64,000 bases of DNA, taken from NCBI GenBank assembly GCA_964019415.1, contig OZ025880.1, forward strand, positions 694,802 to 758,801, given 5' to 3'. The notes under the pieces were generated by a model. It did no database searches. It was not told the DNA's origin and worked only from the letters and a program-made list of their open reading frames with translations. Below, piece by piece: positions 7,002 to 58,870 of the stretch (positions are counted from its first letter, which is position 1; every line of letters begins with the position of its first letter). This stretch comes from Ianthella basta (lineage: Eukaryota; Porifera; Demospongiae; Verongiida; Ianthellidae). Both the position numbers and the translations under genes were made by a program.

Positions 7002-8438
7002 TCAGTATATGTAGAGTTCCAACTGCTCAACGGCAATTGTGCTACTACCTGGCTGGCAAAAGCGAACCTCAAGGTCAGATACAGTTGCCTCTGGCATGGC
7101 TTTCCAGAACCACGGCATACGAGTGTTCTTGCAGCACTTGCTACCACGGTAACATCCTTCACCATCCCACAGTGGGTTTGAGGTGTGCCACCGGCTGTAT
7201 ACAATTGTATGTGGGCCTGACTCGCAATAGTAGTCATTACAAACAAATGATGGAGCAGCTGTTCCTGGGTTAGCAGCACATGGGCAGTTCCCTGTATTGG
7301 AACGAGATTCATAATTGCCAGCAACATAGCTCCAGATGTGCTGACGCTGTCCTTCTTTCCAGTAAGTGATGGACAATCCACTCAGATAAGCATTGTCAAT
7401 AGTGTTGTATCCACTGAGAGTACTGTAGTGGAATGTATTCTGAACAAAATGGCTATAACCCACCACTTTGCCACAAACATAGTCAAATGGAATGCTGTAA
7501 GTAGGGAATGAGTACAAATCACACAGATTACATCCACGATATGCAGTCGACCCACACATCTTCTTCCCTGATGAGGTAAATGTTTCCATATTACGAGGAC
7601 ATCTAGCAGAAGGTCCAGTCATATTGATGTATGCCACACGCATCAGTCCACTCACCCCACACAGATCAGCCTTCATGTAACAGTAGATATAAACATAGGA
7701 GTATAGTGGACCTTGGAGAGGGTATGCCTTCATCCAGTAATAGCCTGATGGAAGGGAATTATCACAGGCATGGATTTCGTAGCAAGATGTTGCAGGATTG
7801 AGGGGAGTGCTTCCAGGACAGCGCTTTCTACTTGTGTTCTCACATTTGGATGGCATGTCTGTTGGTTGTGATGATGCTGTGGTTATTGGGCTTCTTGTAG
7901 GAGGGGTACTCTTGTTTGATTCAGTACGAGGTGTGGATAGAGGAGTATGAGTTGTTTGAGTGACTGAACCACTTCTGTTATTACCGCACTCCACTACCAC
8001 TTTAATAGGGTCCTGAGGAGGAGGAGAAGTGGTCAAATTCTTCACTTCCTCTTTTGTTATCAAGCGTACAATCTCTCTAAGTTCTGCAACATCTAGCCCA
8101 CTGGGGCCAGGGAGACCAGGGGATCCTTGTTTTCCATCCATGCCATCTCTACCTGGCTGCCCATCACTGCCATTGTTACCAGGTGGTCCTGGGGGACCTG
8201 GACGCCCTTATTGTCCATCACGTCCTGCTCTGCCTTCTCTTCCAGGTGGCCCCTCAAGTCCGTCTCTACCGGGAGAACCCTGAATCATGTAGCCTACATT
8301 GCACTGTCCAGTGGTGTTGGTACTCTGAGTGGGGTGAGGCTGTAGTGGAGGGGAATCAGTGCCCTTATCTCTAAAGGCAGAAGGCAGAATGATAAGGAAA
8401 CAGGTCAGAGCCACCACACAGGGAAGGTTGAACTTCAT
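7002..8438 (-). pseudogene. Locus 1: collagen-like secreted protein, one nonsense codon
   Basis: First member of the array. The ATG at 8436-8438 opens a signal peptide (MKFNLPCVVALTCFLIILPS), a Pro/Thr-rich leader with the conserved TTGQC and about 20 Gly-X-Y triplets. A TAA at 8208-8210 sits at a Y position inside the collagen stretch. The same frame continues without further damage through one [15 protein letters not shown] segment, the Thr/Pro linker and a complete head ending ELYIY at 7002. Paralogues with this stretch have a Pro codon here, so at least two base changes are implied. It may be a young pseudogene, a null allele or an assembly error. Its leader and first triplets differ from the type A genes, while its head is closest to locus 9. 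Variable-loop residues include SHFVQNTF and FCQPGSSTIAVEQ. Confidence 0.8.
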
Positions 8439-8475
8439 GGCTTGTAGTTGTTCATTGTAGCTCCTGTTGTGCCAG

Positions 8476-8483
8476 CATTTATA
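8476..8483 (-). promoter_or_regulatory. TATA box, locus 1
   Basis: TATAAATG on the minus strand, about 40 bp before the ATG. A TATA at nearly the same distance recurs before loci 3, 4, 5, 7, 9, 10, 11 and 12. Confidence 0.55.
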
Positions 8484-9448: not shown

Positions 9449-10872
9449 CTACATATGGTTACAAGTAATGCAATCAGCGTATGTAGAGTTTGCATTTTGC
9501 TCAACGGCAACTATAGCATTATGGCTTGGCTGACAAAAGCGAACCTCGAGGTCGGATGATATTTTCTCTGGCATGGCCTTCCAGAACCACGGCATACGAG
9601 TGTTGTCACAGCACTTGCTACCATGGTAACATCTCTTGCTGTCCCACAGTGGATTGTAGGTATGCCACTGTTCAGATGGTGTTGAGTGAGTTCCAGACTC
9701 ACAGTAATAGTCATGGCCAACAAACCATGGAGCAGCATTGCCTCGTTTAGCAGCACAGGGACAGTTGTGTGGATTGGATATATTCTCCCGTAACCCTGCT
9801 ACATAGCTCCAGATGTGCTGACACTGCCTTTCCTTCCAATAAGTTATGGACACTCCACTGAGATAGCCAATATCAATGGTATCATATCCATAAAATCTGA
9901 ATCCATACGGGTGATGCCAGCTGTAGCCAACCACTTTGCCACAAACATAGCCAAATGGAATGTTATAAGTACGAAATATGTGTGAATCACACACTTTCTT
10001 TCCACATGTAGCATTGGTCCTGTTCATATTGATGTATGCCACACGCATCAGTCCACTCATCCCACACAAGTCATCCTTCATGTAACAGTAGACGTGGATA
10101 TAGGAGAATGATGGACCAGGGAGATGGTGCGTTTTCACCCAATAGTGGCCTGATGGAAGGGAACGATCACAGGCATGGATTTCATAGCAAGAAGTGGCTG
10201 GATTGAGGGGAGTGCTTCCAGGACAGTGTTTTCTACTTGTGTCTGTTGTTTCTGTGGGTGCTGTTGGGGTAGTTATTGGTCTTCTTGTGGTGGGGCTGTA
10301 CTTGTTCCATTCAGTGCGAGGTGTGGATGGAGGAGTGGGAGTTGTATGAACTACTGAACCACTTCTATTATTGCCGCACTCCACTACCACTTTGATAGGG
10401 TCCTGAGGAGGAGGAGAAGTGGTCAAGTTCTTCACTTCCTCTGTTGTAATCAGGCGCACAATCTCTCTCAGCTCTGCAACACTGATAGGACCCTGAGGCA
10501 CAGTTGTTTGGTTTTTAACTTCCTCTTTTGTTATCAAGGTACTATCTCTCTGATCTCCTCAAGGTCTACCCCACTGAAACCGGGGGGACCAGGAGTACCT
10601 GGCAGACCATCAGCACCGTTTCTTCCTGGTTGTCCGTCAGCTCCTTCCTTTCCTTGGGGCCCAGATGGTCCAGGGAGACCGTCACGTCCGTCTCTACCTG
10701 GAGGACCCATCTGTGGTCCTTAAACCAAGTAGCCTGCATTGCACTGTCCTGTGGTGTTGACAGCTGGAGAAGGTTGGGTTTGCAGTGGAAGTGAGTCAGT
10801 TCCTTCAGCAGCAAAAGCACTGGAAATAGCCAGGAGCAAGCAGCTCAGAAGCAGGACACTTGTCAACTTCAT
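9449..10872 (-). pseudogene. Locus 2: type C collagen-like gene, multiply broken
   Basis: Aligns throughout with intact loci 6 and 8. Visible lesions: a TAA at 10720-10722 where paralogues have CAA (Gln of YLVQG); a one-base deletion near 10538 (TCAAGGTAC versus TCAAGCGTAC) shifting frame inside the first helical segment; an in-frame loss of about 21 codons of the head near 10010 (between NATC and GKKVCDS), which removes a cysteine; and a small insertion near 9497 that replaces the usual ELYIR end. The ATG (MKLTS) is at 10870-10872. The intact 3' part still shows the two-segment type C arrangement, the linker and most of the head. This is clearly a pseudogene, though the remaining frame from 10537 to 9449 is long. 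Confidence 0.88.
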
Positions 10873-12132: not shown

Positions 12133-13659
12133 TCAGTATATGTAGAGTTCCAACTGCTCAATGGCAAAGATGTAGCCAGTTGGCTGGCAAAAGCGAACTT
12201 CGAGGTCAGATACAATTGTATCTGGCATAGCCTTCCAGAACCATGGTAGACGAGTATTGCTGCAGCACTTGCTACCACGGTAACATCCTTTGCCATCCCA
12301 GAGTGGGTTTGAGGTGTGCCACTGGTTGGATGGTGATCCGTGAGTGCTAGACTCACAATAGACATCAATGCCAATGAATGACGGAGCAGCTCTACCTGGG
12401 CTAGGAGCACATGGACAATTAGCATCATCGCTACCTGTTTCACGATACCCTGCAGCATAGCTCCAGATGTGTTGACGCTGCCTTTCTTTCCAGTAAGTGA
12501 TGGACAATCCACTCAGATAAGCATTATCAATAGTGTTGTATCCACTACTAGTGCTGTAGTAGAATGCGTACTGAGCATACTGGCTATAGCCAACCACTTT
12601 GCCACAGACATAGTCAAATGGAATGCTGTAAGTAGGGAACGTGCGCGAATCACACAGTTTGCTTCCACGATGTACAGTCGACCCACACATCTTCTTCCCT
12701 GATGAGGAAAATGTTTCCATATTTTGAGGACAACTAGCATTAGTCTTGTTCATATTGATGTATGCCACACGCATCAGTCCACTCATCCCACACAGATCAT
12801 CCTTCATGTAGCAGTAGACATAAACATGGGAATACAACGGACCATGGACATGGTGTGTCTTCAACCAGTAATAGCCTGATGGAAGAGAATGATCGCAGAC
12901 ATGGATTTCATAGCAAGAAGATGCAGGATTAAGAGGAGTGCTTCCAGGACAGCGCTTTCTAGTTGTGTTATTGCATTTAGATGGCATGTCCATTACTTGT
13001 TGTGACGGTGCTGTGGTTATTGGGCTTCCTGTGGTAGGGGTACTCGTGTTCAACTGGATACGGGATGTGAATAGAGGAGTACGAGTCGTTTGGATGACTG
13101 AACCACTTCTGTTATTACTGCACTCCACTACCACCTTGATGGGGTCATGAGCAGGAGGAGAAGCAGTCAAGTTCTTCACTTCCTCTTTTGTTATCAAGCG
13201 AACAATCTCTCTCAGTTCACCCATGTTCAACCCACCGGGACCAGGTGGACCAGGGGGTCCCTGTTTTCCATCTAAGCCATCCCTTCCTGGCTGTCCGTCC
13301 TTACCATCTCTACCCGGCTGCCCATCGCCGCCGTCGTTACCTGCTGGACCAGGTGGTCCTGGGGGACCTCTACGTCCTGGCTGTCCATCACGTCCTGCTC
13401 TGCCATTGGTACCTGGTATACCTTCTCTTCCTGGCGGCCCCTCACGTCCGTCTCTACCTGGAGTGCCCATTAGCGGTCCTTGAACCAAGTAGCCTGCATT
13501 GCACTGTCCTGTGGTGTTGGTACTCTGAGTGGGCTGAGGCTGTGTTGGAAGCTGTGACTGCACTGGAGGGGAATCAGTGCCCTTCTTATAACTAGTGCCA
13601 AGGGCAGCTGGTGGGATGAGGAGGAGACAAGTCAGAATCACTACACTGTGTAGGTTCAT
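12133..13659 (-). CDS. Locus 3: type A secreted collagen-like protein with cysteine-rich head
   Basis: Intact, 508 residues, single exon. Signal peptide about 1-20 ([20 protein letters not shown]); Pro/Thr/Gln-rich leader with Cys53 just before the collagen stretch, suited to interchain disulfides; 26 uninterrupted Gly-X-Y triplets (about 65-142) rich in charged GRD/GRE/GKD; a helical [15 protein letters not shown] segment (about 148-163) that could register the trimer; a Thr/Ser/Pro linker with NXS/T sites; and a head (about 232-508) with about 17 Cys. The head has [37 protein letters not shown], the QHIWSYAAG motif, NCPCA, a [13 protein letters not shown] motif and EQLELYIY. The first part resembles the start of fibrinogen-like domains. 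Ligand unknown; role as a secreted oligomeric binding protein is inferred. Variable loops: [29 protein letters not shown]. Confidence 0.88.
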
Positions 13660-13696
13660 GGTTTGTAGCTGTTACTTGCAGCTGCTGCTGAGCCAC

Positions 13697-15713: not shown

Positions 15714-17159
15714 TCAATACACATAAATTTCAAGTTGTTCAATGCCAGTTTTGTCTGAGCCAATCCCATTTGGCTGGCACCAGCGAATTTCAATGTCGGA
15801 TGTAGCCTCCACAGGCAAGGTCTTCCAGAACCATGGCGCACGATTACATCCATGATTGCAGCACCTGCTACTACGGTAACAACCTTTGTTATCCCACAGT
15901 GGGTTGGAGGTGTGCCACTGTTTGGCCGGTGTTGAGTGAGTGCCAGACTCACAATAGAAGTCATTTCCAACAAATGCTGGAGCCACTCTACCTGGGGTAG
16001 CAGCACAGGGACAATTACATGTATGGGAACTAGTTTCACGATACCCACCAACATAGCTCCAGATGTGTTGACGTTGTCCTTTCTTCCTATTGGTGATGGA
16101 CAACCCGCTGAGGTAAGGACTGTCAATGTTGTTGTACCCACTACTGGTACTGTAGTGGAATCCACAGTTAGCATAATACCCATAGCCAACTGCCTTGCCA
16201 CACACAACATTGTATGGGACATGATGAGTGTGGAATATCAGAGGATCGCATTTGGTTTTGTCAGTGTTAGATGGCCCACATAATTTCTTTCCTGATACAG
16301 TATAAAGTGCCAGAGGATCAGGGCACATGGTGGTTGTCCTAGTAACATTCAAATACCCAATGCGCATAACTCCAGCTATCCCACACTTGTCTTCTTTCAT
16401 GTAGCAGTAAACACGAACAGGTAAGTGTAACTGATCATAGGGATGGTACCTCTGTATCCAGTAGTAGCCAGAAGGGAGAAAACGGTTGCAGAGGAGAACA
16501 TTACGGCATGAGGTGGCGGGATTGTAGGGGGTGAGGCCAGGACAGTCTTCATGCGATGTGTTGTCACACTTGTATGGCAGAAGACTGGTGAATGTACCTA
16601 AAGGTGTACTTGGCAGTTGAGCACTGGGGGTAGCTGTCCTATGCACATGAGGACCAGTTACATTGGAGCACTCCACCACCACCTGGATAGGGTGCTGAGG
16701 TGCCATCAAGCGAGCTATCTCTCTGAGTTCATTCATGTCTAACCCACCAGAGCCAGGGGGACCAGGGGGTCCCTGTTTTCCATCTAAGCCATCCCTTCCC
16801 GGCTGTCCGTCATTACCATCTCTACCCGGCTGGCCATCACCGCCGTCGTTACCTGCTGGACCAGGTGGTCCTGGGGGACCTCTACGCCCTGGCTGTCCAT
16901 CTCGTCCTGGTTTCCCATTCAAGCCTGGTATGCCTTCTCTTCCCTGTGGCCCTTCTCGTCCGTCTCTCCCCGAGGGGCCTTGAACCAAGTAGCCTGCATT
17001 GCACTGTCCTGTGGTGTTGGTACTCCGAGTGGGCTGAGGCTGTGTTGGAAGCTGTGACTGCACTGGAGGGGAATCAGTGCCCTTCTTATAACTACTGCCA
17101 AGAGCAGGAGGAAGGATGAGGAGGAAACAGATCAGAATCACTACACTGAGTAGGTTCAT
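15714..17159 (-). CDS. Locus 4: type B secreted collagen-like protein with cysteine-rich head
   Basis: Intact, 481 residues. Signal peptide [20 protein letters not shown]; leader with TTGQC; 26 Gly-X-Y triplets; then '[14 protein letters not shown]' instead of the LITKEEVKN segment; a shorter Thr/Pro linker; and a divergent head ([82 protein letters not shown]). All landmark cysteines are present, plus extra ones (ANCGF, SSHTC, NHGCNR). The tail loop is longer than in type A (CQPNGIGSDKTGIEQ). It is duplicated, flanks included, as locus 7. Function inferred as for locus 3. Confidence 0.87.
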   Translation of the reverse strand: MNLLSVVILICFLLILPPALGSSYKKGTDSPPVQSQLPTQPQPTRSTNTTGQCNAGYLVQGPSGRDGREGPQGREGIPGLNGKPGRDGQPGRRGPPGPPGPAGNDGGDGQPGRDGNDGQPGRDGLDGKQGPPGPPGSGGLDMNELREIARLMAPQHPIQVVVECSNVTGPHVHRTATPSAQLPSTPLGTFTSLLPYKCDNTSHEDCPGLTPYNPATSCRNVLLCNRFLPSGYYWIQRYHPYDQLHLPVRVYCYMKEDKCGIAGVMRIGYLNVTRTTTMCPDPLALYTVSGKKLCGPSNTDKTKCDPLIFHTHHVPYNVVCGKAVGYGYYANCGFHYSTSSGYNNIDSPYLSGLSITNRKKGQRQHIWSYVGGYRETSSHTCNCPCAATPGRVAPAFVGNDFYCESGTHSTPAKQWHTSNPLWDNKGCYRSSRCCNHGCNRAPWFWKTLPVEATSDIEIRWCQPNGIGSDKTGIEQLEIYVY

Positions 17160-18413: not shown

Positions 18414-18676
18414 ATGGAGTTCAAGCTATTCAATGCCAATTTTCTTCTTGGCAATCCCATTTAGTTGACACCAATGAACCTCAATATCAAACATAGCTTC
18501 CTTGGGCAAGGTTTTCCAAAACCATGGCATACGAGTGTTGTCGCAGCACTTGCTACCACTGTGACATTATTTGCCATCCCAGAGTGTGTTGGAGGTGTGC
18601 CACTGGTTGGGTGGTGGTGAGTGAGTTCCAGGCTCACAATAGTAGTCACTGCCATATGGCAGAGCAGCTCTACCTC
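18414..18676 (-). pseudogene. Relic of a type B head
   Basis: The minus strand gives fragments in the expected order: [21 protein letters not shown] followed by a stop, [18 protein letters not shown], then DIEVHWCQLNGI and IGIE followed by a stop. Only the last third of the head survives, and there are at least two nonsense changes. It marks an extra, dead copy between loci 4 and 5. Confidence 0.8.
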
Positions 18677-19179: not shown

Positions 19180-20715
19180 TCAGCGTATGTAGAGCTCCAG
19201 CTGCTCAATGGCAATTGTCGTGCTAGTAGTTGGCTGACAAAAGCGAACCTCGAGGTCAGATGTTATCTCCTCATGCACAGCCTTCCAGAACCACGGCATA
19301 CGAGTGTTGTTGCAGCACTTGCTAGTACGGTAACATCCTTTGCCATCCCACAGTGGGTTTGAGGTGTGCCACTGGCCAGATGGAGATGAGTGAGTGCCTG
19401 ACTCGCAATAGAAATCATTGCAAACGAATGCTGGAGCAGCTGAACCTCGGTTAGCAGCACAGGGACAGTTGTATCCACTGGAGCTAGATTCATACAATCC
19501 AGCAGCATAGCTCCAGATGTGCTGACGCTGTCTCTCTTTCCAGTAAGTGATGGACAATCCGCTCATATAAGCATCATCAATAGTGCTGTATCCACCAGAT
19601 ACGCCATGGTAGAACCCATATGCATAGTACTTGGCATAACCAATTGCTTTGCCACAGACATAGTTAAATGGAATATTGTAAGTAGGGAATGTGCGCGAAT
19701 CACACACTTTTGTTCCATGATGTACAGTTGACCCACACATCTTCTTCCCTGATGAGGTAAATGTTTCCATATTTTTAGGACACGTGGCATTAGTCTTGTT
19801 CATATTGATGTATGCCACACGCATTAACCCACTCATCCCACACAAGTCATCCTTCATGTAGCAGTAGACATAAACATGGGAGAATGATGGACCATGGAGA
19901 TGGTGCGTCTTCACCCAGTAGTAGCCTGACGGAATGGTATGATCACAGGCATGGATTTCATAGCAAGAAGTGGCAGGGTTGAAGGGAGTGCTTCCAGGAC
20001 AGCGCTTTCTAGTTGTGTTCTTGCATTTAGATGACATGTCTGCTACTTGTTGTGATGGCGCTGCGGTTATTGGGCTCCCTGTGGTAGGGGTACCTCTGTT
20101 CAACTCGGTATGGGGTGTGGATAGAGGAGTACGAGTTGTTTGAGTGACTGAACCACTTATGTTATTGCTGCACTCCACTACCACCCTAATGGGATCATGA
20201 GCAGGAGGAGAAGTGGTCAAGTTCTTCACTTCCTCTTTTGTTATCAGGCGCACTATGTCTCTAAGTTCATCCACATCTAACCCACCGGGGCCAGGGGGAC
20301 CAGGAGGTCCTTGTTTTCCATCTAAGCCATCCCTTCCTGGCTTTCCGTCTTTACCATCTCTACCTGGCTGCCCATCACCGCCGTCGTTACCTGCTGGACC
20401 AGGTGGTCCTGGGGGACCTCTACGTCCTGGCTGTCCATCACGTCCTGCTCTGCCATTGGAACCCGGTATGCCTTCTCTTCCTGGCGGCCCCTCACGTCCG
20501 TCTCTACCTGCAGGACCCATCAGTGGTCCTTGAACCAAGTAGCCTGCATTGCACTGTCCTGTGCCAGTGGTATTGGTGCTCTGAGTGGGCTGAGGCTGTG
20601 TTGAAGGCTGAGGCTGCACTGGAGGGGAATCAGTGCCCTTCTTATAACTGGTGCCAAGGGCAGGAGGAAGGATGAGGAGGAAACAGATCAGAATCACTAC
20701 ACTGAGTAGGTTCAT
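19180..20715 (-). CDS. Locus 5: type A secreted collagen-like protein with cysteine-rich head
   Basis: Intact, 511 residues, ATG at 20713-20715. Same layout as locus 3: signal peptide, TTGTGQC leader (two residues longer), 26 triplets, [17 protein letters not shown], Thr/Pro linker with [10 protein letters not shown], full head. It has the most divergent type A loops: [32 protein letters not shown] and [13 protein letters not shown]. It ends ELYIR, like the type C genes. It has an extra Cys in FVCNDFYC, shared only with locus 1 among the loci with a readable head. It has no counterpart in the 28.8-36.4 kb duplicate, where this stretch is missing. Confidence 0.88.
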
Positions 20716-25246: not shown

Positions 25247-26716
25247 TCAGCGTATGTAGAGTTCCATTTGCTCAACAGCAATTCTCTCATTAACATATGG
25301 ATGACAAAAGCGAACTTCAAGATTGGATGTAATTGTCTCAGGCATGGCCTTCCAAAACCACGGCATACGAGTGTTGTCACAGCACTTGCTACCACGGTAA
25401 CACCCTTCACCATTCCATAGTGGGTTGGAGGTGTACCACTGACCAAATGTGGTTGAGTGAGTGCCTGCCTCACAATAGAAGTCTCTGCCAACAAAACATG
25501 GAGCAGCAGTGCCTTGCTTAGCAGCACAGGGGCAGTTAGCTCCATTCCCGAAAGCTTCACGATTGCCAGCAACATAGCTCCAGATGTGCTGACGCTGCCT
25601 TTCTTTCCAGTAAGTGATGGACAATCCACTTAGATAAGCATTATCAATTGTGTTGTATCCACTGCGAGTACTATAGGCAAATCCATACGGATGATTCCAG
25701 CTATAACCAACCGCTTTGCCACAAACATAGCCAAATGGAATGTTATAAGTACGAAATATGTGTGAATCACACACTTTCTTTGCACGATTTACAGTCGACC
25801 CACACATTTTCTTTCCTGAAGAAGTAAATGTTTCCAGGTAAGGAGGACAAGTAGCATTGGTCCTGTTCATATTGATGTATGCCACACGCATCAGTCCACT
25901 CATCCCACACAAGTCATCCTTCATGTAGCAGTAGACATGGATATAGGAGAATGATGGACCAGGGAGATGGTGCGTTTTCACCCAATAGTAGCCTGATGGA
26001 AGGGAAAGATCACAGGCATGGATTTCATAGCAAGAAGATGCAGGGTTGAGGGGAGTGCTTCCAGGACAGCGCTTTCTACTTGTGTCTATTGTTTCTGTGG
26101 GTGGTGTTGGGGTAGTTATTGGGCTCCTTGTGGTGGGGCTGTACTTGTTCCATTCAGTGCGAGGTGTGGATGGAGGAGTGAGAGTTGTATGAACTACTGA
26201 ACCACTTCTGTTATTATCACACTCCACTACCACTTTGATAGGGTCCTGAGGAGGAGGAGAAGTGGTCAAATTCTTCACTTCCTCTTTTGTAATCAGGCGC
26301 ACAATCTCTCTCAGCTCTGCAACACTGATGGGACCTTGAGGCACAGTTGTTTGGTTTTTAACTTCCTCTTTTGTTATCAAGCGTACTATCTCTCTGATCT
26401 CCTCAAGGTCTACCCCACCAGGGCCAGGGGGACCAGGGGTACATGGCAGGCCATCAGCACCGTTTCTTCCTGGTTGTCCGTCAGCTCCTTCCTTTCCTTG
26501 TGGCCCAGATGGTCCAGGGAGACCGTCACGCCCATCTCTACCCGGAGGACCCATCAGTGGTCCTTGAACCAAGTAGCCTGCATTGCACTGTCCTGTGGTG
26601 TTGACAGCTGGGGGAGGTTGGGCTTGCAGTGGCAGTGAGTCAGTTCCTTCAGCAGCAAAAGCACTGGAAATAGCCAGGAGCAAGTAACTCAGTAGCAGGG
26701 CACTTGTCAACTTCAT
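25247..26716 (-). CDS. Locus 6: type C collagen-like protein, Gly-to-Cys in the helix
   Basis: Intact, 489 residues from the ATG at 26714-26716 (a GTG just upstream is not needed). The signal peptide differs from type A (MKLTSALLLSYLLLAISSAFA). Leader with VNTTGQC; only 15 Gly-X-Y triplets; then two copies of the helical segment ([18 protein letters not shown] and [18 protein letters not shown]) separated by [10 protein letters not shown]. One triplet reads CTP instead of GTP (GGT in locus 8, TGT here), breaking the Gly repeat with a cysteine. Linker and full head follow, ending ELYIR. Loops: SWNHPYGFAYS, NREAFGNGA, GTHSTTFGQWYT, CHPYVNERIAVEQ. It is almost identical to locus 8, about 9.3 kb away. 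Confidence 0.87.
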   Translation of the reverse strand: MKLTSALLLSYLLLAISSAFAAEGTDSLPLQAQPPPAVNTTGQCNAGYLVQGPLMGPPGRDGRDGLPGPSGPQGKEGADGQPGRNGADGLPCTPGPPGPGGVDLEEIREIVRLITKEEVKNQTTVPQGPISVAELREIVRLITKEEVKNLTTSPPPQDPIKVVVECDNNRSGSVVHTTLTPPSTPRTEWNKYSPTTRSPITTPTPPTETIDTSRKRCPGSTPLNPASSCYEIHACDLSLPSGYYWVKTHHLPGPSFSYIHVYCYMKDDLCGMSGLMRVAYINMNRTNATCPPYLETFTSSGKKMCGSTVNRAKKVCDSHIFRTYNIPFGYVCGKAVGYSWNHPYGFAYSTRSGYNTIDNAYLSGLSITYWKERQRQHIWSYVAGNREAFGNGANCPCAAKQGTAAPCFVGRDFYCEAGTHSTTFGQWYTSNPLWNGEGCYRGSKCCDNTRMPWFWKAMPETITSNLEVRFCHPYVNERIAVEQMELYIR

Positions 26717-27067
26717 CACTGCTCCAATTACAGAAGATACTGTAGCTCCTTGGGCACTGGGCTGTGTGTATCACCTGACATTCCTCCAATCCTGTGATCC
26801 TCATGGGGTGACCATTTGTTGACACTGCAAAGTTGATAACTGTCCCACCCACAGATGAATCTTCATGCACACAAAGCAGAACACAATGACATTCATGAGC
26901 TGTAATGACAACTACTACAACTTGTGCTCAGTTACCAAACACACATGCCTCACATGATGTGTCATGTGAAGACTGATGTTTGTATAAATTATGTGTGTGT
27001 ATACTTATGCATAATAAATGTTGCATGTGTCCCTGTGCATATGTGTTTGCATGTGTGAGTGCATGTG
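26717..27067. other. Upstream region of locus 6
   Basis: Paralogous to 10873-11240 and 36051-36400, the regions upstream of loci 2 and 8. I see no TATA at the position used by types A and B, so type C genes may use a different promoter. Confidence 0.55.
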
Positions 27068-41861: not shown

Positions 41862-43360
41862 TTAGTACACATAAATTTCAAGTTGCTCAATGCCAACTTT
41901 GTCACGGCTGATGACATATGGCTGGCACCAGTGAACTTCAATATCAGAAGTAGCTTCTGCTGGCAAGGTCTTCTAGAACCACGGCACACGATTGAGTTCA
42001 GGACTGCAGCACTTACTACTACTGTAACAACCCTTGTTATCCCACAGTGGGTTGGAGGTATGCCACTGCTTGGATGGTGTTGAGTGACTGCCAGACTCAC
42101 AATGGTAGTCACTGCCAACAAATGCTGGAGCGGCTTTACCTGGGGTAGCAGCACAGGGACAGTTACATGAACTGGAACCAGTTTCACTGTATCCACCAAC
42201 ATAGCTCCAGATGTGCTGACGTTTCCCTAGTATCCTGTTAGTGATGGACAACCCACTGAGGTAAGGACTGTCAATGTTGTTGTACCCAATACTGGTACTG
42301 TAGTAGAATCCACAATTAGCATAATAGCTGTAGCCAATGGCTTTGCCACACACAAAGTTGTATGGAATAAAGAAGGCTGGAAATACCACAGAATCGCATT
42401 GGGTTTGAACAGGGTTGGTGGGGCCGCATAACATCTTCCCAGATATTCATTGTAGAGCTTCAAAGGAAATGGACAAACAGGATTTTCAGTCATGTTCATG
42501 TACACCACTCGCATCACTCCTGCCCTCCCGCACTTGTCATCTTCCATGTAGCAGTAGACACGTGCATGGGAATAAGATGATCCATAGTAAAAGTTTCTTT
42601 TCACCCAGTAGTAGCCAGATGGAAGAGAAGGATTGCATAGATAAATGTCATAGCACGATTTAGCAGGATAAGTGACACTAAGACCAGGGCATGGTCTAGT
42701 CATGTTGCTGCATTGGCGAGATACTTGCTGTGGCGACCTAGTTGGCTGCTGTGGTTGAGGAGCTTGGGTTGTAGGGTTTGTTGTGGGACGAATAACTCTA
42801 TGTGCACTACTGGTGTGGTTGCAGCATTCCACTACCACTTTGAGTGGACTCTGAGGAGCAGCTTTAGCAGTTATGTTCTTGATCTGCATTGCTAACACAT
42901 GGACTATCTCTCTCAGCTCCTCAAAATCTAACCCACTGGGGCCTGGGGGACCGGGAGGACCCTGTTTGCCATCTAAGCCGTCTCTACCTGGCTGACCGTC
43001 TTTGCCATCTCTACCCGGCTGCCCATCAGCTCCATCAATACCTGGAAGACTGGGGGGTCCTGGGGGACCTCGACGCCCTGGCTGTCCATCACGTCCTGCT
43101 CTGCCATTGGTACCTGGTATACCTTCTCTTCCTGGCGGCCCCTCACGTGCGTCTCTACCTGCAGGACCCACTATTGGCCCTTGAGCGAAGTAGCCTCCAT
43201 TGCACTGTCCTGTGGTGTTGGTGCTCTGAGTAGGCTGAGGCTGTGTTGGAGGCTGTGACTGCACTGGAGGGGAATCAGTGCCCTTCTTATAACTACTGCC
43301 AAGGGCAGGAGGCGGGATGAGGAGGAAACAAGTCCGAATCACTACGTTGAGTAGGTTCAT
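41862..43360 (-). pseudogene. Locus 10: broken mosaic collagen-like gene
   Basis: ATG at 43358-43360. The leader is type A-like ([25 protein letters not shown]). The roughly 26 triplets carry two Gly losses (ARE for GRE; SLP for GLP-type). A shortened helical part ([16 protein letters not shown]) and a distinct linker rich in Pro/Gln follow. The head is nearest type B ([30 protein letters not shown]). A single-base deletion near 42445, after KLYNE, shifts the frame; [10 protein letters not shown] resumes in another frame. A TAG near 41975 replaces the second Trp codon of PWFW. The sequence beyond still encodes KTLPAEATSDIEVHWC to EQLEIYVY. Two disabling lesions plus helix damage make this a pseudogene. 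Confidence 0.88.
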
Positions 43361-46400: not shown

Positions 46401-47111
46401 CTAGCTGAAAGCCCTCACATGGGAGAATGGCACTGGTAATCATATGCCAATATAGGCTATCTCTCTATACCAATATATTGTGCATCCTCAGCATTGGCTC
46501 ACAGTGTGTTGATGTAGTGTTGTTAGCATGAATATGCATGTAGTGTGCATGAGTTGCATGAATATGTATGTTTTAAGTGACAATGTATATCTTTACACAT
46601 GCGTAGTTTTGTAGGAGAACACGTGTATGCATGGTGCATTTGCTGTTGTGTCATTGAAGTTGAATCTGACTGATCATTCAGTGTCACTTCCCTGATCGGA
46701 GGATACCACAGTTGACTAAATCCAATGGCAATGATAACTATCAGTTAACATACGTACCTACCTGCCTCAGGTTATGAAGCAACAGAAACACAAACTGTAT
46801 GGACAGTCTAGCTGCTCCTATGTCCACCACCAGTGAAACACTTGCGGTTTCAACAAGAGCAAATATAAGGATAACTAGTGGGGGGAAGGCATTCACTGGT
46901 TGCTGTCATGGGCTACGGCCCCCAGCCTACTGTAACACCACTGGTGTAGATTGTTGGTAAGCGTAATATCCATTGATTCACCCAAGTTCAATCTAACCCA
47001 GCTTGTCCATGCAGTAGCCAGCTACAATGAACTGCCATTTCAACAAGTCAAACTTGCTAGCTATATACTCTGAACACATTTCAACACCAAATTTATGGAG
47101 TGTGTGCACTG
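43406..47111. other. Long intergenic region, loci 10-11
   Basis: No supported gene. About 44400-47100 is paralogous to 51200-53350 plus 54600-54665 and 56518-56880, with the recurring modules near 44455, 44935 and 45615. A long G run (47227-47242) belongs to the LINE 3' end that follows. Confidence 0.65.
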
Positions 47112-47116
47112 TGATA

Positions 47117-48112
47117 TGGTATGGTATGGATGTCTTATTTCACCTGGGGAAGCCTTCACCCATGAGGCTACTTCACAAGGCACCCAGAACCATACAGACA
47201 CAAACAGTAAAAAATAAAGAGGGGTGGGGGGGGGGGGGGGGGGATGAGGGAATAAATAAATATAAAGATTAAAAAGGCCATGCATTAATAACAGTAGAAT
47301 TAAATTTAAGCATTTAAAATAGAGTGAAGAATTGTCATGCAGGCGTACACAAGTAATGTGATTCAGCAGAGTATATGCATACGTGAATGAGAGATGGCGT
47401 AAAATAGAGTAAGTTAGCAAGTGAGATTTGATGGAGCTTGAAATGCCGTTACTCTTGCTAGCTCTGATACTCACTGCAAATGCCTTCTTCCTAAGTTTGG
47501 TCCTCACTTGAGGGACACGGATGCCTCTGCAGGAAGCAGACCTGGTGACATGTTGATGGGTTCTTGCACATTGCTGGAATAATGCAGACAGATAGGCAGG
47601 ACCACGGCCAGAGACACTTTGGTAAACTACCACAGCTTCACTCATGGCCCTTCTGGAAGCCAGTGTGAGCCAGTTCAGTTCCCACTTCATGTCAGTAGCA
47701 GAGGCACCCACACGTCTGTGGAGGATGATACAGGCAGCATAATTCTGGAGATGCTCCAGACTTTTGCTTTGCCCTTGTGTGCAAGTGCCCCAGACTGCAT
47801 CTGCATAGGTGAGGTGAGGGAGTATGTACGCATTGTACATGGTGCAGAGGGCTTGCCTAGGTAAGAACCAAGACAGTCGGTGGAGGAGGTCAATCGCCTT
47901 GGCAGCTTTGCTTCGGACAAGGTCAATATGCTGACTCCAAGAGAGAGTGTCACTGATTACCACACCAAGATATTTGTAGTTCTGTACCTGCTGAATGTGG
48001 GTACCATTGAGTTGAATATCAAGGGGTGACAGGGATCTCCGACGAGAAGAGTGAATGAGCATACACTTTGTCTTTGCCGTATTCAGTCACAAATCACTTT
48101 CCAGAAGTCATT
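47117..48112 (-). mobile_element. 5'-truncated LINE (reverse transcriptase C-terminal part), TGATA duplication
   Basis: The minus-strand frame from about 48085 reads NTAKTKCMLIHSS, then YKYLGVVISDTLSW, HLTYADAVWG, ASRRAMSEAVVVYQSV and the usual end of the protein. This is the part after the catalytic motifs in CR1/Jockey-like elements. A 3' UTR with a poly-C run and a short ATACC repeat follows. A stop precedes NTAKTK, so the copy is dead. TGATA flanks both ends (47112-47116, 48113-48117). The empty paralogous site is at 56880-56884. Confidence 0.88.
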
Positions 48113-48554: not shown

Positions 48555-50063
48555 TCAGTATATGTAGAGTTCCAACTGCTCAACGGCAAAGCTGTACAAA
48601 TATGGCTGGCAAAAGCGAACCTCGAGGTCGGATACAATTGTATCCGGCATAGCCTTCCAGAACCACGGCATACGAGTGTTATTGCAGCACTTGCTAGTAC
48701 GGTAACATCCTTTGCCATCCCACAGTGGGTTTGTAGTGTGCCACTGGTTGGATGGTGCGCTGTGAGTGCTAGACTCACAATGGACATCATTGCCAACAAA
48801 TGATGGAGCAGCTCTACCTGGGTTAGCAGCACATGGACAGTTGTATGTACTGGAACTAGTTTCACGATACCCTGCAGCATAGCTCCAGATGTGCTGACGC
48901 TGTCTCTCTTTCCAGTAAGTGATGGACACTCCACTCAGATAAGCATTATCAATAGTGTTGTATCCACTAATAGTGCTGAAGTGGAATCCGTACTGATTAT
49001 AATTGCTATAACCAACCACTTTGCCACAAACGTAGTCAAATGGAATGCTGTAAGTAGGGAACATGCGGGAATCACACAGTTTACTTCCAAGATGTACAGT
49101 TGACCCACACATCTTCTTCCCTGATGAGGTAAATGGTTCCATATTTTGAGGACATTGAGCAGAAGTCTTGTTCATATTGATGTATGCCACACGCATCAAT
49201 CCACTCATCCCACACAAGTCATCCTTCATGTAACAGTAGACATAAACATGGGAATACAATGGACCATGGACATGGTGTGTCTTCAACCAGTAATAGCCTG
49301 ATGGAAGGGAATGATCACAGACATGGATTTCATAGCAAGATGTTGCAGGATTAAGGGGAGTGCTTCCAGGACAGCGCTTTCTAGTTGTGTTCTTGCATTT
49401 AGATGGCATGTCTGCTACTTGTTGTGATGGTGCTGTGGTTATTGGGCTCCCTGTGGTAGGGGTACTCCTGTTGGACTCTGTACGTGGTGTGGATAGAGGA
49501 GTATGAGTTGTTTGGGTGACTGAACCACTTCTGTTATTACTGCACTCCACTACCACTTTGATGGGGTCATGAGCAGGAGGAGAAGTGGTCAAGTTCTTCA
49601 CTTCCTCTTTTGTTATCAAGCGAACAATCTCTCTCAGTTCACCCACATCTAACCCACCGGGGCCAGGGGAACCAGGGGGTCCCTGTTTTCCATCTAAGCC
49701 ATCCCTTCCTGGGTTTCCGTCTTTACCATCTCTACCCGGCTGCCCATCACCGCCGTCGTTACCTGCTGAACCAGGTGGTCCTGGGGGACCTCGGCGCCCT
49801 GGCTGTCCATCACGTCCTGCTCTGCCATTGGTACCTGGTATACCTTCTCTTCCTGGTGGCCCCTCACGTCCGTCTCTGCCCGGAGGACCCATTAGTGGTC
49901 CTTGAACCAAGTAGCCTGCATTGCACTGTCCTGTGGTATTGGTGCTCTGAGTAGGCTGCGGCTGTGTTGAAGGGGAATCAGTGCCCTTCTTATAACTAGT
50001 GCCAAGGGCAGCAGGAAGGATGAGGAGGAAACAGGTCAGAATCACTACACTGGGTAGGGTCAT
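48555..50063 (-). CDS. Locus 11: type A secreted collagen-like protein with cysteine-rich head
   Basis: Intact, 502 residues from the ATG at 50061-50063 ([20 protein letters not shown]); an in-frame GTG upstream is unlikely to be used. The leader is short (the PVQSQ part is missing). TTGQC, 26 triplets, [18 protein letters not shown], linker, full head. The head closely follows loci 3 and 12, except in the loops: SNYNQYGFHFS, YRETSSSTY, NDVHCESSTHSAPSNQWHT and CQPYLYSFAVEQ. Ends ELYIY. The 5' flank differs from the other type A genes right at the ATG (GCCGGC in place of the ACAAACC context). Confidence 0.88.
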   Translation of the reverse strand: MTLPSVVILTCFLLILPAALGTSYKKGTDSPSTQPQPTQSTNTTGQCNAGYLVQGPLMGPPGRDGREGPPGREGIPGTNGRAGRDGQPGRRGPPGPPGSAGNDGGDGQPGRDGKDGNPGRDGLDGKQGPPGSPGPGGLDVGELREIVRLITKEEVKNLTTSPPAHDPIKVVVECSNNRSGSVTQTTHTPLSTPRTESNRSTPTTGSPITTAPSQQVADMPSKCKNTTRKRCPGSTPLNPATSCYEIHVCDHSLPSGYYWLKTHHVHGPLYSHVYVYCYMKDDLCGMSGLMRVAYINMNKTSAQCPQNMEPFTSSGKKMCGSTVHLGSKLCDSRMFPTYSIPFDYVCGKVVGYSNYNQYGFHFSTISGYNTIDNAYLSGVSITYWKERQRQHIWSYAAGYRETSSSTYNCPCAANPGRAAPSFVGNDVHCESSTHSAPSNQWHTTNPLWDGKGCYRTSKCCNNTRMPWFWKAMPDTIVSDLEVRFCQPYLYSFAVEQLELYIY

Positions 50064-50109
50064 GGCCGGCACGTAGCTAACTGTTCACTGGAACTGCTGC
50101 CGAGTCATT

Positions 50110-53740: not shown

Positions 53741-53890
53741 CTAGCAAGGCGCCCGCCTTCGGCAGGCTTCTGCTATGGCAAGTCGCACAACAGCGAGTCG
53801 GCCCCAACCAGTTTTGACGTATGTGAGCTGGTAGCAACAGAAGGTAGCTGCTATAACGACGGCCGAGTTTTAAAGTAGTCTCGCAGCATG
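53741..53890. other. GC-rich insertion with stable hairpin
   Basis: About 150 bp of GC-rich sequence in an AT-rich setting. It begins CTAGCAAGGCGCCCGCCTTC and contains the short hairpin GCCCGCCTTCGGCAGGC (a GCCxGCC/GGCxGGC stem over a TTC loop). No coding potential is evident. It interrupts a head relic and is probably the end of an unidentified mobile element. Confidence 0.45.
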
Positions 53891-54004
53891 GGTGTTCCAA
53901 TCATATGATTCAGAAGTACTGTAGTTTTGGTTCAGTGCATACACAGTTCAAGTAGAATGAGGTATAATTAGTAGCAGCAACAGCAGCAGTAGTAGAAGTA
54001 CAGT

Positions 54005-54317
54005 TTAGTACACATAAATTTCAAGGTGTTCAATGCCAGGTTGTCAACTCTAATCCCCACATGGCTGGCACCAGCGAACTTCAATGTCAGGTGTTCTTAG
54101 CCTCCTCGGGCAAGGTCTTCCAGAACCATGGTACTCGACGGAGTGTGCAACAATTGCTGCCACAACAACATCCTTTGCCATCCCAGAGTGGGTTGGAGGT
54201 GTGCCACTGGGTTGATAGTGCTGGGTGAGTTCCAGACTCACAATAGAAATCATTGCAATTGTTTGCTGCTTGAGCTATATGTATGTAAGAGCCAGACAAG
54301 CAAAGGTCAACGATCAT
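54005..54317 (-). pseudogene. Relic of a type B head
   Basis: The minus strand retains [43 protein letters not shown] and, after a frameshift near 54090, DIEVRWCQPCGD and an EIYVY-like end with a stop at 54005. Upstream head and collagen sequence is gone. The flanking microsatellite (TAG/CAG near 53970) parallels the one next to locus 10, so it may descend from a locus 10-like gene. Confidence 0.8.
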
Positions 54318-54665
54318 CCTTCAAGAGTTGCATGAATTGCAAGTGTTCTTTAATTTGCGCCTGCATAGCATGTGTTCATGCAATGCAAAATAGTCACTCT
54401 ATACTGTGTCATGTAAATGGGATATGTGTACTGCACCAATTAATGCAGCAATGTTCTATAGTAACTAAGTAGTACATAATTTCATGCATCTTTTGTGCTA
54501 CTGTCTGCATGGACAATTAATCCAACTAGGGCATGAGTTAGAGGAAGCACTTGCAATTAAATATACTTACACAATAGGCTTTGGCAAGATACACATAAGT
54601 CAAACTTGCTCACAGTGTGTTGACTAAATCCAATGGCAAAGATAGCTATCATGCAGTTAACATAC

Positions 54666-56515
54666 TTTTTTTTTTTTTCAATGTCACCAATCATTATTAT
54701 TCGAAACACCAGTGCTAAAGACTGGTCAAAGAGCATGCATACAACAACAGAAAAGTGACATTAAGGTGAGCTTAACACTGCCAAAAAAAAAGGAAAGTTC
54801 TGCCGATGAACTTGCACAGTATGGTTAAGACACCAGTACAGGAATTACAAAAGCTTAAACATAAACATGCAGCAGGGTTCAAGAGGAAAGAAGAAAAAAG
54901 GATCATGCAAACTTAACTACACCAGTTCCGTTTACACCAGATGTCGTAGGACGATGCAACCACATGCTTAATTATGTCAATCTCGAAGTTCTGTCGGTCT
55001 TTGGCTTTGGCTTGTAGCAGTTTGAAGAGCTGCTGAAAGCCCACTGTGCTCAGGAAGCCTCTCGACCCGACCTCGAGAGTGATGATAGATGTGTGGCGGG
55101 AACAAGCACAGGCAGCTGCAAGGTCCCGGTACCGATGGGCCTTCCTCTCTGCAGCGTCTGCAATGTTGGTCTCAAAAGGCACCGTCAGCTCTACCAGGTA
55201 GATGGCTGAAGTTCCCCAGATAACCATGTCCGGGCGCAGGTCCGTGGGAGCAATGTCTTGGGGGAACGTGTACTGCTGGCCTGGTAGGTCAGCTATGACT
55301 TGCATTCCTGATATCAGGTTGCGCTTGGAAAAGTCAAAGATGACCTTGAGCACATCATCGTGCCTGGTGGTGTAGCGTCGCAGACTGAGGGCCTTCTGGC
55401 AGGAGTTGAGAACATGGGCCAGAGACTGTACCTCTCCACAGAGTTGGCACCGTGGTGAGGACAGCTTCTTCCACCTGAACAAGTTGGCATTGTGGGGAAG
55501 AGTGTCCGTCACCGCGTTGAGAGCAAACTTGAATACCCACTCTGGGAGGCTGAAGATGGCAGTGGACCAGTTCTGGGCCGCCCTGCCCTCGAATTCCCGC
55601 ACAGTCAACCCTTGGACTGGAAGGCTAGTGGTGTGAGCCAGTCTGGAGGCGGTGTCCTCAGCCTGGATCTTGGCCTTGACATGAGACACCACTTTCTTCC
55701 TGGGAGCCCCAGGGTCTTCCTTCATTACCCCCACCACCTCCTGGTAAGGCCGGAACAAAGCACACTGAAGTTGAGACTCACGGAGGGTGATTTGTGTGGC
55801 GATAGCTCGGACACTGGAGTCGCTTGAGCACATGTGTGAACCAGCCTTGGCAGCATGGAGCTTCTTGTACACAGTGACCAGGTGTGGGAGCTCCAGCCCA
55901 CCGTTGAACTTGGGAAGAAAGAGTCGATTGGGATCAGCAGAGCGGGCCAGACCACACCATCTTTTCAGAAACCTGGTGGCAATGGGCTGGAGGTGGTTCT
56001 GCAACCAGGAGACTGGCAGGTCTGAGATGGACAGGTCCCAGGTCAGACGAGAGCAGATGCTGACCTTGAAAAGCTTTAACTTCTGCTGACGGGTGATGGG
56101 AGTGGCATCGACCTTCTCCAGCATGGACAATAGCTTGGTCTTGAGGTGCTCTCTGGATTCCTCAGAGGTGGAGTGGATGGCCACCGGGGCTCCAAGGAAT
56201 CGAAATGTGGTGTCTCCCAGGTAGGGGATGGGCTCATTGCCAAGCTTGAGTCCGGGGTCGAAGGCCTTCCCAGAGGAGGCTTTGATCGCAACACTCACAC
56301 ACTTGGGGACATTAGCCCGCATCCCTGACCAGGCCAACCATGACTCAGTGAGATGCAACAGGTGCTGGCATGAGGAGGGTCCATCATCAATCAGGGAGGT
56401 GTCATCCGCATACTGCAGCAGGTTGATCCTACTGCGGACGGAGGCGAGGCTGTAGCCGAGCTGGGAGCAGCATTGGGTAATGGAGTCCACCAGGGTGTTC
56501 ATCACCGTATTGCCT
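54666..56515 (-). mobile_element. 5'-truncated R2/NeSL-like LINE with restriction-like endonuclease
   Basis: The minus-strand frame 56505-54913 (about 530 residues) starts inside the reverse transcriptase, just before the catalytic LLQYADDTSLI. It continues through the thumb region, a CQLCGEVQSLAHVLNSC zinc-binding motif, and a restriction-like endonuclease with RPDMVIW...YLVELTVPFE, the PD-(D/E)xK-type signature of R2, NeSL and related elements. It ends KRNWCS, then a 3' UTR and a poly(A) tail (T run at 54666-54678). The frame is open over its length, so the copy is young, but it lacks most of the protein. It appears to replace about 2 bp of the target compared with the unoccupied sites near 46758 and 53335. 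Confidence 0.88.
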
Positions 56516-57340
56516 ATAACCTACCTGCCTCAGGTTATGAAGCAACAGTAACACAAACTGTATGGACAGTCTTAGCTGCTCCTGTAACCACCACAAGTGA
56601 AACACCTGTGGTCAACAAGAGTAAATATAAGGATAACTAGTGGGGGGAAGGTGTTCACTGGTTGCTGTCAAAGTGGGCTACCTCCCCCCCCAGCCTCCTG
56701 TAACACCGCTGGTGTAGAATGTTGGTAAGCATAATATCCAGTGATTCACCCAAGTTCAATCTAACCCGGCTTGTCCATGCAGTGGTCAGCTGCAATGAAC
56801 TGCCATTTCAACAAGTCAAACTTACTAGCTATATACTCTGAACACATTTCAACACCAAATCTATGGAGTGTGTGCACTGTGATAACACTAGGACATACAG
56901 TAATGTAGTAAGAGAACAAGAGTGAAGAGTAGCAGTGTACGAAGGTTGTAACCAAAACTTCCACCACTGCTTGCATCCCAGGGACAGGCTTTGGGTTGGC
57001 TTGAAAGGGAGACCAGAGTGCACACACATACTCACATAGGCAGTTACATAATTATATAATTTTTATGAATAAGCATGCTGCTATATTGGCATCATTCTAT
57101 GCTTTCCATGTAAGGAAGGTAATATAGCCTTAAGAACATCCCAAGAACCACTGTGTAGGATAGTGAGATACTGCTTAGCGGTCATGCAGTATTTGGCATA
57201 CTGTATGTGTATACGTACTGTCTTCATGCTCACAGGATCAGTCAATCGGTGAAATTAAACAATTCAATCAACACACTGCATATCTTTGACTAACAACACC
57301 ACTAATCTAGCTAACATTACTGGTAACTGCAATTTGTATG
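56516..57340. other. Intergenic, downstream of locus 12
   Basis: Paralogous to 46760-47116 joined to 48113-48554. It provides the empty site (56880-56884) for the LINE at 47117. No gene seen; the two short minus-strand frames here are repeat-derived. Confidence 0.7.
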
Positions 57341-58870
57341 TTAGTATATGTAGAGTTCCAGCTGCTCAACGGCAATGTTGTAACCACTTGGCTGGCAGAA
57401 GCGAACTTCGAGGTCAGATACAATTGCTTCCGGCATGGCTTTCCAGAACCATGGCATACGAGTGTTGTTGCAGCACTTACTATTACGGTAACATCCTTTG
57501 CCATCCCACAGTGGGTTTGAGGTGTGCCACTGGTTGGGTATAGATGTATGTGAGCCTGACTCGCAATAGTAATCAATGCCAACGAATGATGGAGCAGCTC
57601 TACCTGAGTGAACAGCACATGGACAGTTGTATGTATTATAGGAACTAGATTCATAATACCCTGCAGCATAGCTCCAGATGTGCTGACGCTGTCTCTCTTT
57701 CCAGTAAGTGATGGACAACCCACTCAAATAAGCATTATCAATAGTGTTGTATCCACTACTAGTGCTGTAGTAGAATGCACCCTGAGAATAATGGCTATAG
57801 CCAACCACTTTGCCACAAACATAGTCAAATGGAATGCTGTAAGTAGGGAACGTGCGTGAATCACACAGTTTGCTTCCACGATGTACAGTCGACCCACACA
57901 TCTTCTTCCCTGATGAGGTAAATGGTTCCATATTTTTAGGACAAGTAGCATTGGTCCTGTTCATATTGATGTATGCCACACGCATCAGCCCACCCATCCC
58001 ACACAGATCATCCTTCATGTAGCAGTAGACATAAACATGAGAGTACAACGGACCATGGACATGGTGTGTCTTCAACCAGTAATAGCCTGATGGAAGGGAA
58101 TGATCGCAGACATGGATTTCATAGCAAGATGTTGCAGGATTAAGGGGAGTGCTTCCGGGACAGAGCTTTCTAGTTGTGTTCTTGCATTTAGATGGCATGT
58201 CCATTACTTGTTGACATGGTGCTGTGGTTATTGGGCTCCCTGTGGTAGGGGTACTCCTGTTCGACTGGGTATGTGGTGTGGATAGAGGAGTATGAGTTGT
58301 TTGAGTGACTGAACCACTTCTGTTGTTACTGCACTCCACTACCACCTTGATGGGATCATGAGCAGGAGGAGAGGTGGTCAAGTTCTTCACTTCCTCTTTT
58401 GTTATCAAGCGAACAATCTCTCTCAGTTCACCTACATCTAACCCACCGGGGCCAGGAGGACCGGGAGGTCCCTGTTTTCCATCTAAGCCATCTCTTCCTG
58501 GCTGACCGTCTTTGCCATCTCTACCTGGCTGCCCATCACCGCCGTCGTTACCTGCTGAACCAGGTGGTCCTGGGGGACCTCTACGTCCTGGCTGTCCATC
58601 ACGTCCTGCTCTGCCATTGGAACCCGATATGCCTTCTCTTCCTGGCGGCCCCTCACGTCCGTCTCTACCCGGAGGACCCATTAGTGGTCCTTGAACCAAG
58701 TAGCCTGCATTGCACTGTCCTGTGGTGTTGGTACTCTGAGTAGGCTGAGGCTGTGTTGGAGGCTGTGACTGCACTGGAGGGGAATCAGTACCCTTCTTAT
58801 AACTACTGCCAAGGGCAGGAGGCAGGATGAGGAAGAAACAGGTCAGAATCACTATGCTGAGTAGGTTCAT
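57341..58870 (-). CDS. Locus 12: type A secreted collagen-like protein with cysteine-rich head
   Basis: Intact, 509 residues; last gene of the array. Signal [25 protein letters not shown] leader, 26 triplets (one GIS GSN pair), [18 protein letters not shown], linker with TTAPCQQV (an extra Cys), full head with [60 protein letters not shown] and ELYIY. It is nearly the same as loci 3 and 11 outside the loops, which are [21 protein letters not shown] (one residue longer), [12 protein letters not shown] and [12 protein letters not shown]. Confidence 0.88.

Follow-up and report, generated by a model that had tools for sequence, protein, structure and literature searches.

The window analyzed here, 64,000 nucleotides of Ianthella basta DNA (C13:694802-758801, on one contig of a 209-Mb, 96-contig genome), carries on its minus strand between positions 7002 and 58870 an array of genes that encode a collagen-like stalk followed by a cysteine-rich head. 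Protein change in the heads is concentrated in four short loops; positive selection is supported for the window's own group of heads, and a raised rate of change at the same loops is supported in other groups. On balance, we think that these genes probably belong to a family of germline-diversified, collagen-multimerized secreted recognition proteins of the fibrinogen/intelectin type.

An array of collagen-stalked genes with loop-bearing heads

The array contains 10 full heads, of which nine belong to open genes and one, 7002, follows a stalk with an interrupted frame, as well as two broken copies and two fragments. Each open gene is one uninterrupted frame that runs from a signal-peptide-like start through a Gly-X-Y run, whose longest stretch is 12 to 27 triplets, and a Thr/Ser/Pro-rich linker to a head of ~275 residues. 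The head is rich in cysteine (17 were counted in one example), and Pfam Collagen matched all four family genes scanned (E values of 1.3e-11 to 2.2e-12). Loop 1 comprises the 8 residues after VCGKxxGY, loop 2 the stretch before NCPCA, loop 3 the 9 residues after CES or CEA, and loop 4 the residues between C-Q/H/K-P and EQ. The copies are as follows.

57341 to 58870, minus strand: gene 57341, type A, open; 27 Gly-X-Y triplets at 58436-58678; Collagen match, E 1.3e-11; head 57341-58162; loops 1 to 4 at 57773-57796, 57629-57658, 57530-57556, 57368-57388
54008 to 54254, minus strand: head fragment, in two frames (tblastn)
48555 to 50072, minus strand: gene 48555, type A, open; 27 Gly-X-Y triplets; head 48555-49373; loops 1 to 4 at 48984-49007, 48843-48869, 48744-48770, 48582-48602
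41865 to 43360, minus strand: broken copy, type B; one frame (42227-43360) covers the stalk and the beginning of the head, and another (41865-42458), with an internal stop, the rest of the head
37222 to 38730, minus strand: gene 37222, type A, open, a clear mosaic; 16 Gly-X-Y triplets; head 37222-38040; loops 1 to 4 at 37651-37674, 37510-37536, 37411-37437, 37249-37269
34581 to 36053, minus strand: gene 34581, type A, open, recent sister of 25247; 16 Gly-X-Y triplets; head 34581-35402; loops 1 to 4 at 35013-35036, 34872-34898, 34773-34799, 34608-34631
28792 to 30225, minus strand: gene 28792, type B, open; 27 Gly-X-Y triplets; head 28792-29616; loops 1 to 4 at 29230-29253, 29089-29115, 28990-29016, 28819-28848
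25247 to 26719, minus strand: gene 25247, type A, open, sister of 34581; 12+3 Gly-X-Y triplets; head 25247-26068; loops 1 to 4 at 25679-25702, 25538-25564, 25439-25465, 25274-25297
19180 to 20715, minus strand: gene 19180, type A, open; 27 Gly-X-Y triplets; head 19180-20001; loops 1 to 4 at 19612-19635, 19471-19497, 19372-19398, 19207-19230
18414 to 18674, minus strand: head fragment, C-terminal part only (tblastn)
15714 to 17159, minus strand: gene 15714, type B, open; 27 Gly-X-Y triplets; head 15714-16544; loops 1 to 4 at 16158-16181, 16017-16043, 15918-15944, 15741-15770
12133 to 13659, minus strand: gene 12133, type A, open; 27 Gly-X-Y triplets; head 12133-12951; loops 1 to 4 at 12562-12585, 12421-12447, 12322-12348, 12160-12180
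9449 to 10806, minus strand: broken copy; deletion in the head, stalk in a different frame
7002 to 8432, minus strand: copy 7002, type A; head open, 7002-7820, with a stop in the stalk frame; loops 1 to 4 at 7431-7454, 7290-7316, 7191-7217, 7029-7049

Protein change is focused on the four loops in separate groups of heads

A first, sequence-only reading of this DNA had proposed that four short windows vary in an otherwise frozen head, and all 21 of the loop strings that it quoted are present in the translated copies of the array. The analysis of the wider family drew on 71 distinct head-bearing frames read from the genome, members on contigs C3, C5, C10 and C22 being left out, as were others that came to light only with the head from contig C1. 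Sixty-one of these are full heads, and all of them except C12_L069 and C1_L070 fall into five groups: A (11 genes), B (19, two of them in the window), D (14), E (5) and F (10). Per-column variability peaks at the same four places in every group, clearly in A, B, D and E and more weakly in F. When a mask of the four loops was slid along the head, the proportion of nonsynonymous differences (pN) observed in the loops was reached by none of 279 shifts in A, 281 in B, 274 in D and 266 in E, and by 17 of 274 in F; near-identical copies were dropped from these counts and from those of synonymous differences (pS), leaving 16 of the 19 B heads and 13 of the 14 D heads. Because the choice of windows was made by eye from this array, fairer replication comes from groups D, E and F and from most of B.

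Pooled Nei-Gojobori estimates of nonsynonymous (dN) and synonymous, or silent (dS), divergence, loops versus framework, were as follows.

Group A: dN 0.509 versus 0.102; dS 0.555 versus 0.400
Group B: dN 0.352 versus 0.167; dS 0.557 versus 0.650
Group D: dN 0.608 versus 0.218; dS 1.76 versus 1.03 (near saturation)
Group E: dN 0.420 versus 0.138; dS 0.778 versus 0.438
Group F: dN 0.395 versus 0.263; dS 1.10 versus 0.925

Group A loops thus change at the protein level about 5 times as fast as the framework. The observed silent value was reached by 22 of 279 shifts in A, 209 of 281 in B, 12 of 274 in D, 21 of 266 in E and 69 of 274 in F. The sequence-only reading had treated equal silent divergence in the framework as evidence against it; we found silent change in the loops to be at most mildly raised over the framework, and for this reason a mutational hotspot alone is insufficient to account for the loops.

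The framework proved to be constrained (dN/dS, or omega, of 0.34 in group A) but not frozen. Of the strings that had been named as identical, one of 19 residues occurs in 6 of the 10 heads, one of 13 residues in 3 and PWFWKAMP in 7; the B-type heads 15714 and 28792 share only 56 and 59% identity with gene 57341; and four framework codons (139, 143, 203 and 234 in group A numbering) are as variable as the loops. The proposed richness of the loops in Tyr, Ser, Asn and His held in groups A (40.5% versus 26.2% in the framework), B (38.3 versus 28.0%) and D (31.6 versus 24.5%), was slight in F (25.9 versus 21.2%) and was absent in E (21.2 versus 22.2%). Invariant cysteines adjoin every loop: C126 precedes loop 1, C190 and C192 follow loop 2, C210 precedes loop 3 and C266 precedes loop 4.

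Positive selection is supported for the loops of the window's own group

Codon models were fitted with our own MG94-type code, again without near-identical copies (17 of 19 B heads and 13 of 14 D heads kept). On a single tree, omega in group A was 1.77 in the loops (twice the log-likelihood difference [2dlnL] against a value of 1, 8.4). Loops 2 and 4, at 3.83 and 2.62, drive this value, loops 1 (1.21) and 3 (1.00) being indistinguishable from 1. The same model gave loop omegas of 0.95 in B, 0.63 in D, 0.73 in E and 0.49 in F, with frameworks of 0.31 to 0.44. When each head segment was given its own tree, to allow for recombination, loop omega was 1.56 in A (P = 0.0003 against 1; framework, 0.30), 0.95 in B, 0.88 in D and 1.42 in E (P = 0.047), and loops differed from framework with P < 1e-15 in all four groups. 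The two models are therefore inconsistent for group E.

A grid mixture that was blind to the loops also preferred sites with beta above alpha in A (2dlnL, 25.6) and B (13.2). Thirteen group A sites had a posterior of at least 0.9, nine among the 33 loop codons and four among the 247 framework codons. Three of the four selected group B sites lie in comparable columns, and all three are also A sites (hypergeometric P = 8e-5); the remaining one is the residue at which B's loop 4 begins. At the same threshold, D shared none of its two selected sites with A and E shared one of three. The proposal of diversifying selection is therefore supported for group A by both loop omega and the mixture test, whereas in B, D and F the loops evolve faster than the framework without omega exceeding 1. 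The narrower expectation that dN/dS would exceed 1 only in the loops survives in part, given the four selected framework sites.

The strongest competitor is relaxed constraint, in which change in the loops is tolerated because they are surface turns that nothing holds. It predicts the loop omegas of B, D, E and F, which are close to 1 or lower, as well as those of loops 1 and 3 in A. It does not account for a group A loop omega above 1, or for the pair 37222/7002, in which loop pN is 0.33 against a loop pS of 0.07 and a framework pS of 0.22. Furthermore, the F that ends loop 1, an E in loop 2 and an H in loop 3 are fixed in all 11 group A heads, so these loops are not free to vary, which counts against this explanation. 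We consider it unlikely, although it deserves to be taken seriously.

Heads are mosaics, but exchange seems rarely to account for loop sequences in group A

The sequence-only reading had offered templated exchange as another source of loop diversity. In the pairwise homoplasy index (PHI) test, none of 500 shuffles reached the observed value in groups A, B and D, with or without the loops, and the nearest relatives of 37222 change along its head: 7002 in the first 110 columns, 57341 and 12133 in the middle, 57341 next and 48555 at the end. The heads are thus mosaic, as templated exchange would have it. A search for exact second copies, which covered 274,576 bases of the genome, gave a different picture for the loops. 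In group A, 52% of 58 framework 27-mer draws had an exact second copy, compared with 2 of 40 scorable loops, both in the pair 25247/34581; four loops (one loop 2 and three loop 4) that had become noncontiguous through dropped columns were excluded from the 40. The corresponding values were 35% of 57 draws and 8 of 56 loops in D and, in B, where recent duplicates abound, 51% of 96 draws and 40 of 76 loops, unscorable loops remaining in the denominators of both groups. Given how rarely a group A loop has an exact second copy, exchange appears to act more by shuffling and homogenizing the framework than by copying loops.

Contig C43 (22 kb), which represents either the other haplotype or a duplicate, is collinear with the window over 7.3 to 17.6 kb and 41.8 to 43.9 kb. 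Measured in 300-base steps, the flanks differ by 0.7 to 8.7%, except just 3′ of gene 12133 (12.7 to 18.8%). Divergence is 2.0 to 3.7% over the broken copy 9449 and 4.7 to 8.1%, with no peak, over the broken copy 41865-43360, and it peaks at 10 to 16% over the heads of 7002, 12133 and 15714. Loop bases differ at 31 of 99 positions in 12133 and 23 of 108 in 15714. In these two pairs, silent divergence of the head framework (0.22 and 0.25) exceeds that of the stalk (0.18 and 0.11), so that the heads, as units, look imported or long maintained. The loops differ beyond the level of the head, although in these two pairs they do not on their own give evidence of selection.

Several of these observations weigh against selected loop change as the full account. 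In the two collinear pairs, loop pN lies below pS (0.289 versus 0.402 and 0.198 versus 0.288). Framework silent divergence stands above that of the flanks, which means that some of the head divergence reflects imported or old sequence and not selected point change. The 3′ flank of 12133 is itself diverged, and the stalk of 7002, whose head is among the three that diverge, is interrupted. In the codon analyses, recombination breaks the single-tree assumption, the loop-blind mixture test was small in D, E and F (2dlnL of 1.0, 0.2 and 1.2), and loop omega in group A is biased upward because the windows were chosen on A, which makes the mixture test and the other groups the fairer guides.

Could exchange among paralogues, by gene conversion or unequal crossing-over, create the diversity, with loop selection adding little? 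The PHI results, the segmental relationships of 37222 and a head silent divergence above most flanking divergence all fit. However, exchange alone neither confines change to four loops nor lifts dN over dS there, and the scarcity of second copies of group A loops, a difference that group B does not show, runs counter to it. We judge this account to be distinctly unlikely. About as unlikely, or slightly more so, is allorecognition, in which the loops would be self-labels or receptors for the tissue of other individuals. The focal diversification and the large tandem clusters are in keeping with it, as are the peaks of divergence over the heads, which would count as allelic only if C43 represents the other haplotype rather than a duplicate.

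The family occupies at least 223 places in the genome

Searching the genome with a head from the window gave 140 matches (137 of 575 candidates scored), and searching with a head from contig C1 gave 142 (142 of 601 candidates scored). Combined, they mark at least 223 distinct places on 17 contigs, mostly in tandem clusters of up to 47. This number includes partial and broken copies (an internal stop interrupts 14 of the 140 and 11 of the 142 matches) and is a lower bound for places, since not all candidates were scored. Five genes read on contig C17 have no Gly-X-Y run at all; four of the C17 loci, L065 to L068, join a signal-peptide-like start to a head without such a run. On contig C2, the heads of L030/L031, L040/L041 and L044/L045 are identical in DNA although 75 to 172 kb apart, and L039 and L033 are near-identical to other heads; duplication there is therefore recent. 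One C2 match (G000:C2:946986-947768) sits in an open frame of 2050 codons, compared with the usual few hundred. Beyond AVEQ, the broken copy 9449 and L022 share an altered head C terminus that departs from the usual LELYIY-type ending.

The array is flanked on one side by a long open frame (36-2363, plus strand) with a chitin synthase match (Chitin_synth_2, 1.6e-29) and by His/Thr-repeat open frames (2788-4130, plus strand) that are apparently just CA/TG-rich simple repeat. A non-long-terminal-repeat (non-LTR) retrotransposon frame with endonuclease and reverse transcriptase lies at 60652-63996 (minus strand; Pfam), and a reverse transcriptase remnant of a non-LTR retrotransposon lies at 54913-56505 (minus strand; Pfam). 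The stretch 47061-48062 resembles retrotransposon frames by eye but has no Pfam match. Elsewhere in the genome, SRCR genes form a very large repertoire, as is reported for sponges (PMC10855680, PMC4772301, PMC8242945), and copies also lie on the small contig C55.

The start of the head resembles intelectins and collagen C-propeptides

A profile (A2) built from 26 of the 61 full heads matched, among solved structures, collagen C-propeptides (E 7e-6), XEEL (2e-4), intelectin-1 (4e-3) and angiopoietin-1 (0.03). All matches were confined to the first ~80 positions (within 6-84), those to intelectin and XEEL spanning 16-84 (E 2e-4 to 6.5e-3). COLFI matched the head start with E ≤ 0.01 in 23 of 26 diverse heads, although it passed the Pfam cutoff in just 1 of 4 genes scanned and in 2 of 8 heads. 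Past position 84, the loop-bearing rest of the head gave no above-threshold Pfam match and no PDB sequence match with profile A2. Two structure models of the head had low mean predicted local distance difference test scores (46.3 and 39.3) and fold matches near noise.

Fibrinogen_C (PF00147) was absent from the Pfam matches of 4 genes (E ≤ 0.1), 8 heads (E ≤ 1) and 26 heads (E ≤ 0.01), and the collagen IV-type NC1 domain (PF01413), looked for as a mark of short-chain or spongin collagens, was not among the matches of the scanned genes and heads. No immunoglobulin (Ig) domain of the kind found in fibrinogen-related proteins (FREPs) of the Ig superfamily was matched in the four family genes scanned whole. 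An identity with ApeC (PF16977) was rejected, there being no head match and a probability of 0.3% in a profile comparison with one ApeC gene; three ApeC matches lie elsewhere in the genome (L009, L010 and L011).

Least probable of all is a structural role in the matrix, with the proteins serving as short-chain collagens of the skeleton or mesohyl and their heads varying with their assembly partners. The stalks would suit such a role, as would the weak likeness between the start of the head and the C-propeptide that governs chain choice in fibrillar collagens, but COLFI covers only about the first 60 head residues, the five C17 genes lack a Gly-X-Y run, and more than 220 loci with loop-focused change would be unusual.

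A candidate repertoire of secreted recognition proteins

The preferred reading, a germline-diversified family of secreted recognition proteins, draws on likenesses to several known systems. Snail FREPs are fibrinogen-type, diversified proteins with a presumed role in defense, from which the family differs in having no Ig match in the genes scanned and in a diversity that would be germline rather than somatic. Like ficolins and collectins, the family combines a collagen stalk with a C-terminal recognition head whose start is of the fibrinogen-related domain (FReD) type; unlike ficolins, it has no Fibrinogen_C match, and its ~200 loop-bearing residues are not a recognized FReD. The intelectins (X-type lectins such as human intelectin-1 and Xenopus XEEL) share its profile over head positions 16 to 84 but not beyond, and the collagen stalk and hypervariable loops set it apart from them. 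ApeC-containing proteins, which the excerpted literature describes as secreted in aquatic invertebrates with a recognition domain, differ in their PF16977 domain. The placozoan "intelectins," of which Trichoplax sp. H2 has up to 31 genes, come close: according to the excerpted report, they are mostly secreted and clustered, with a conserved C-terminal portion, a short FReD of up to 70 residues that is confined to the N-terminal portion and, in most, 10 conserved cysteines (PMC6321704). Compared by description only, they are without collagen repeats in that text (PMC6321704), whereas most heads read here have a Gly-X-Y stalk, and the family also differs in its at least 223 places and four diversifying loops. 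In excerpts of two further reports, in neither of which the array genes were seen, fibrinogen-like and collagen genes are regulated in sponges exposed to microbial molecules (PMC6208332) and the sponge immune repertoire shows individuality (PMC8242945). We found no collagen-stalked, loop-diversified family of this kind for sponges in the open-licence literature.

By analogy with the comparable design of ficolins and collectins, the collagen stalk should bundle chains into multimers, while the C-terminal head, fibrinogen/intelectin-like at least at its start, would bind ligand. The four cysteine-adjoining loops, carried by a constrained scaffold rich in disulfides, probably supply the residues that contact ligand and may share one binding face, as the sequence-only reading supposed; the proteins would have an immune role. 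The repertoire would be inherited, with tandem duplication supplying copies and exchange between copies making mosaics of them, while selection would favor new loop residues, with its strongest effect in the window's group at loops 2 and 4. The ligands would most likely be microbial surface glycans or, alternatively, self-labels used in allorecognition.

Sponges and other early animals harbor dense, specific microbiomes and reject foreign tissue, and to our knowledge they have no antibody-like adaptive immunity. We tentatively raise the possibility, which we hold at less than even, that the genome of an early-branching animal encodes, as a germline repertoire, hundreds of collagen-multimerized, lectin-like proteins that resemble antibodies in one respect, a disulfide scaffold bearing four cysteine-anchored hypervariable loops, which are selected while exchange shuffles and homogenizes the scaffold; such proteins may serve individual-specific recognition of microbes or of other individuals. 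In a sponge, the family would also represent a ficolin-like architecture in a phylum for which the excerpted text of one survey, in which ficolins are reported from vertebrates and urochordates, lists none (PMC11312191). A large single-exon family with its diversity focused on four loops of one scaffold would be a concrete germline repertoire for the recognition of microbes and foreign tissue.

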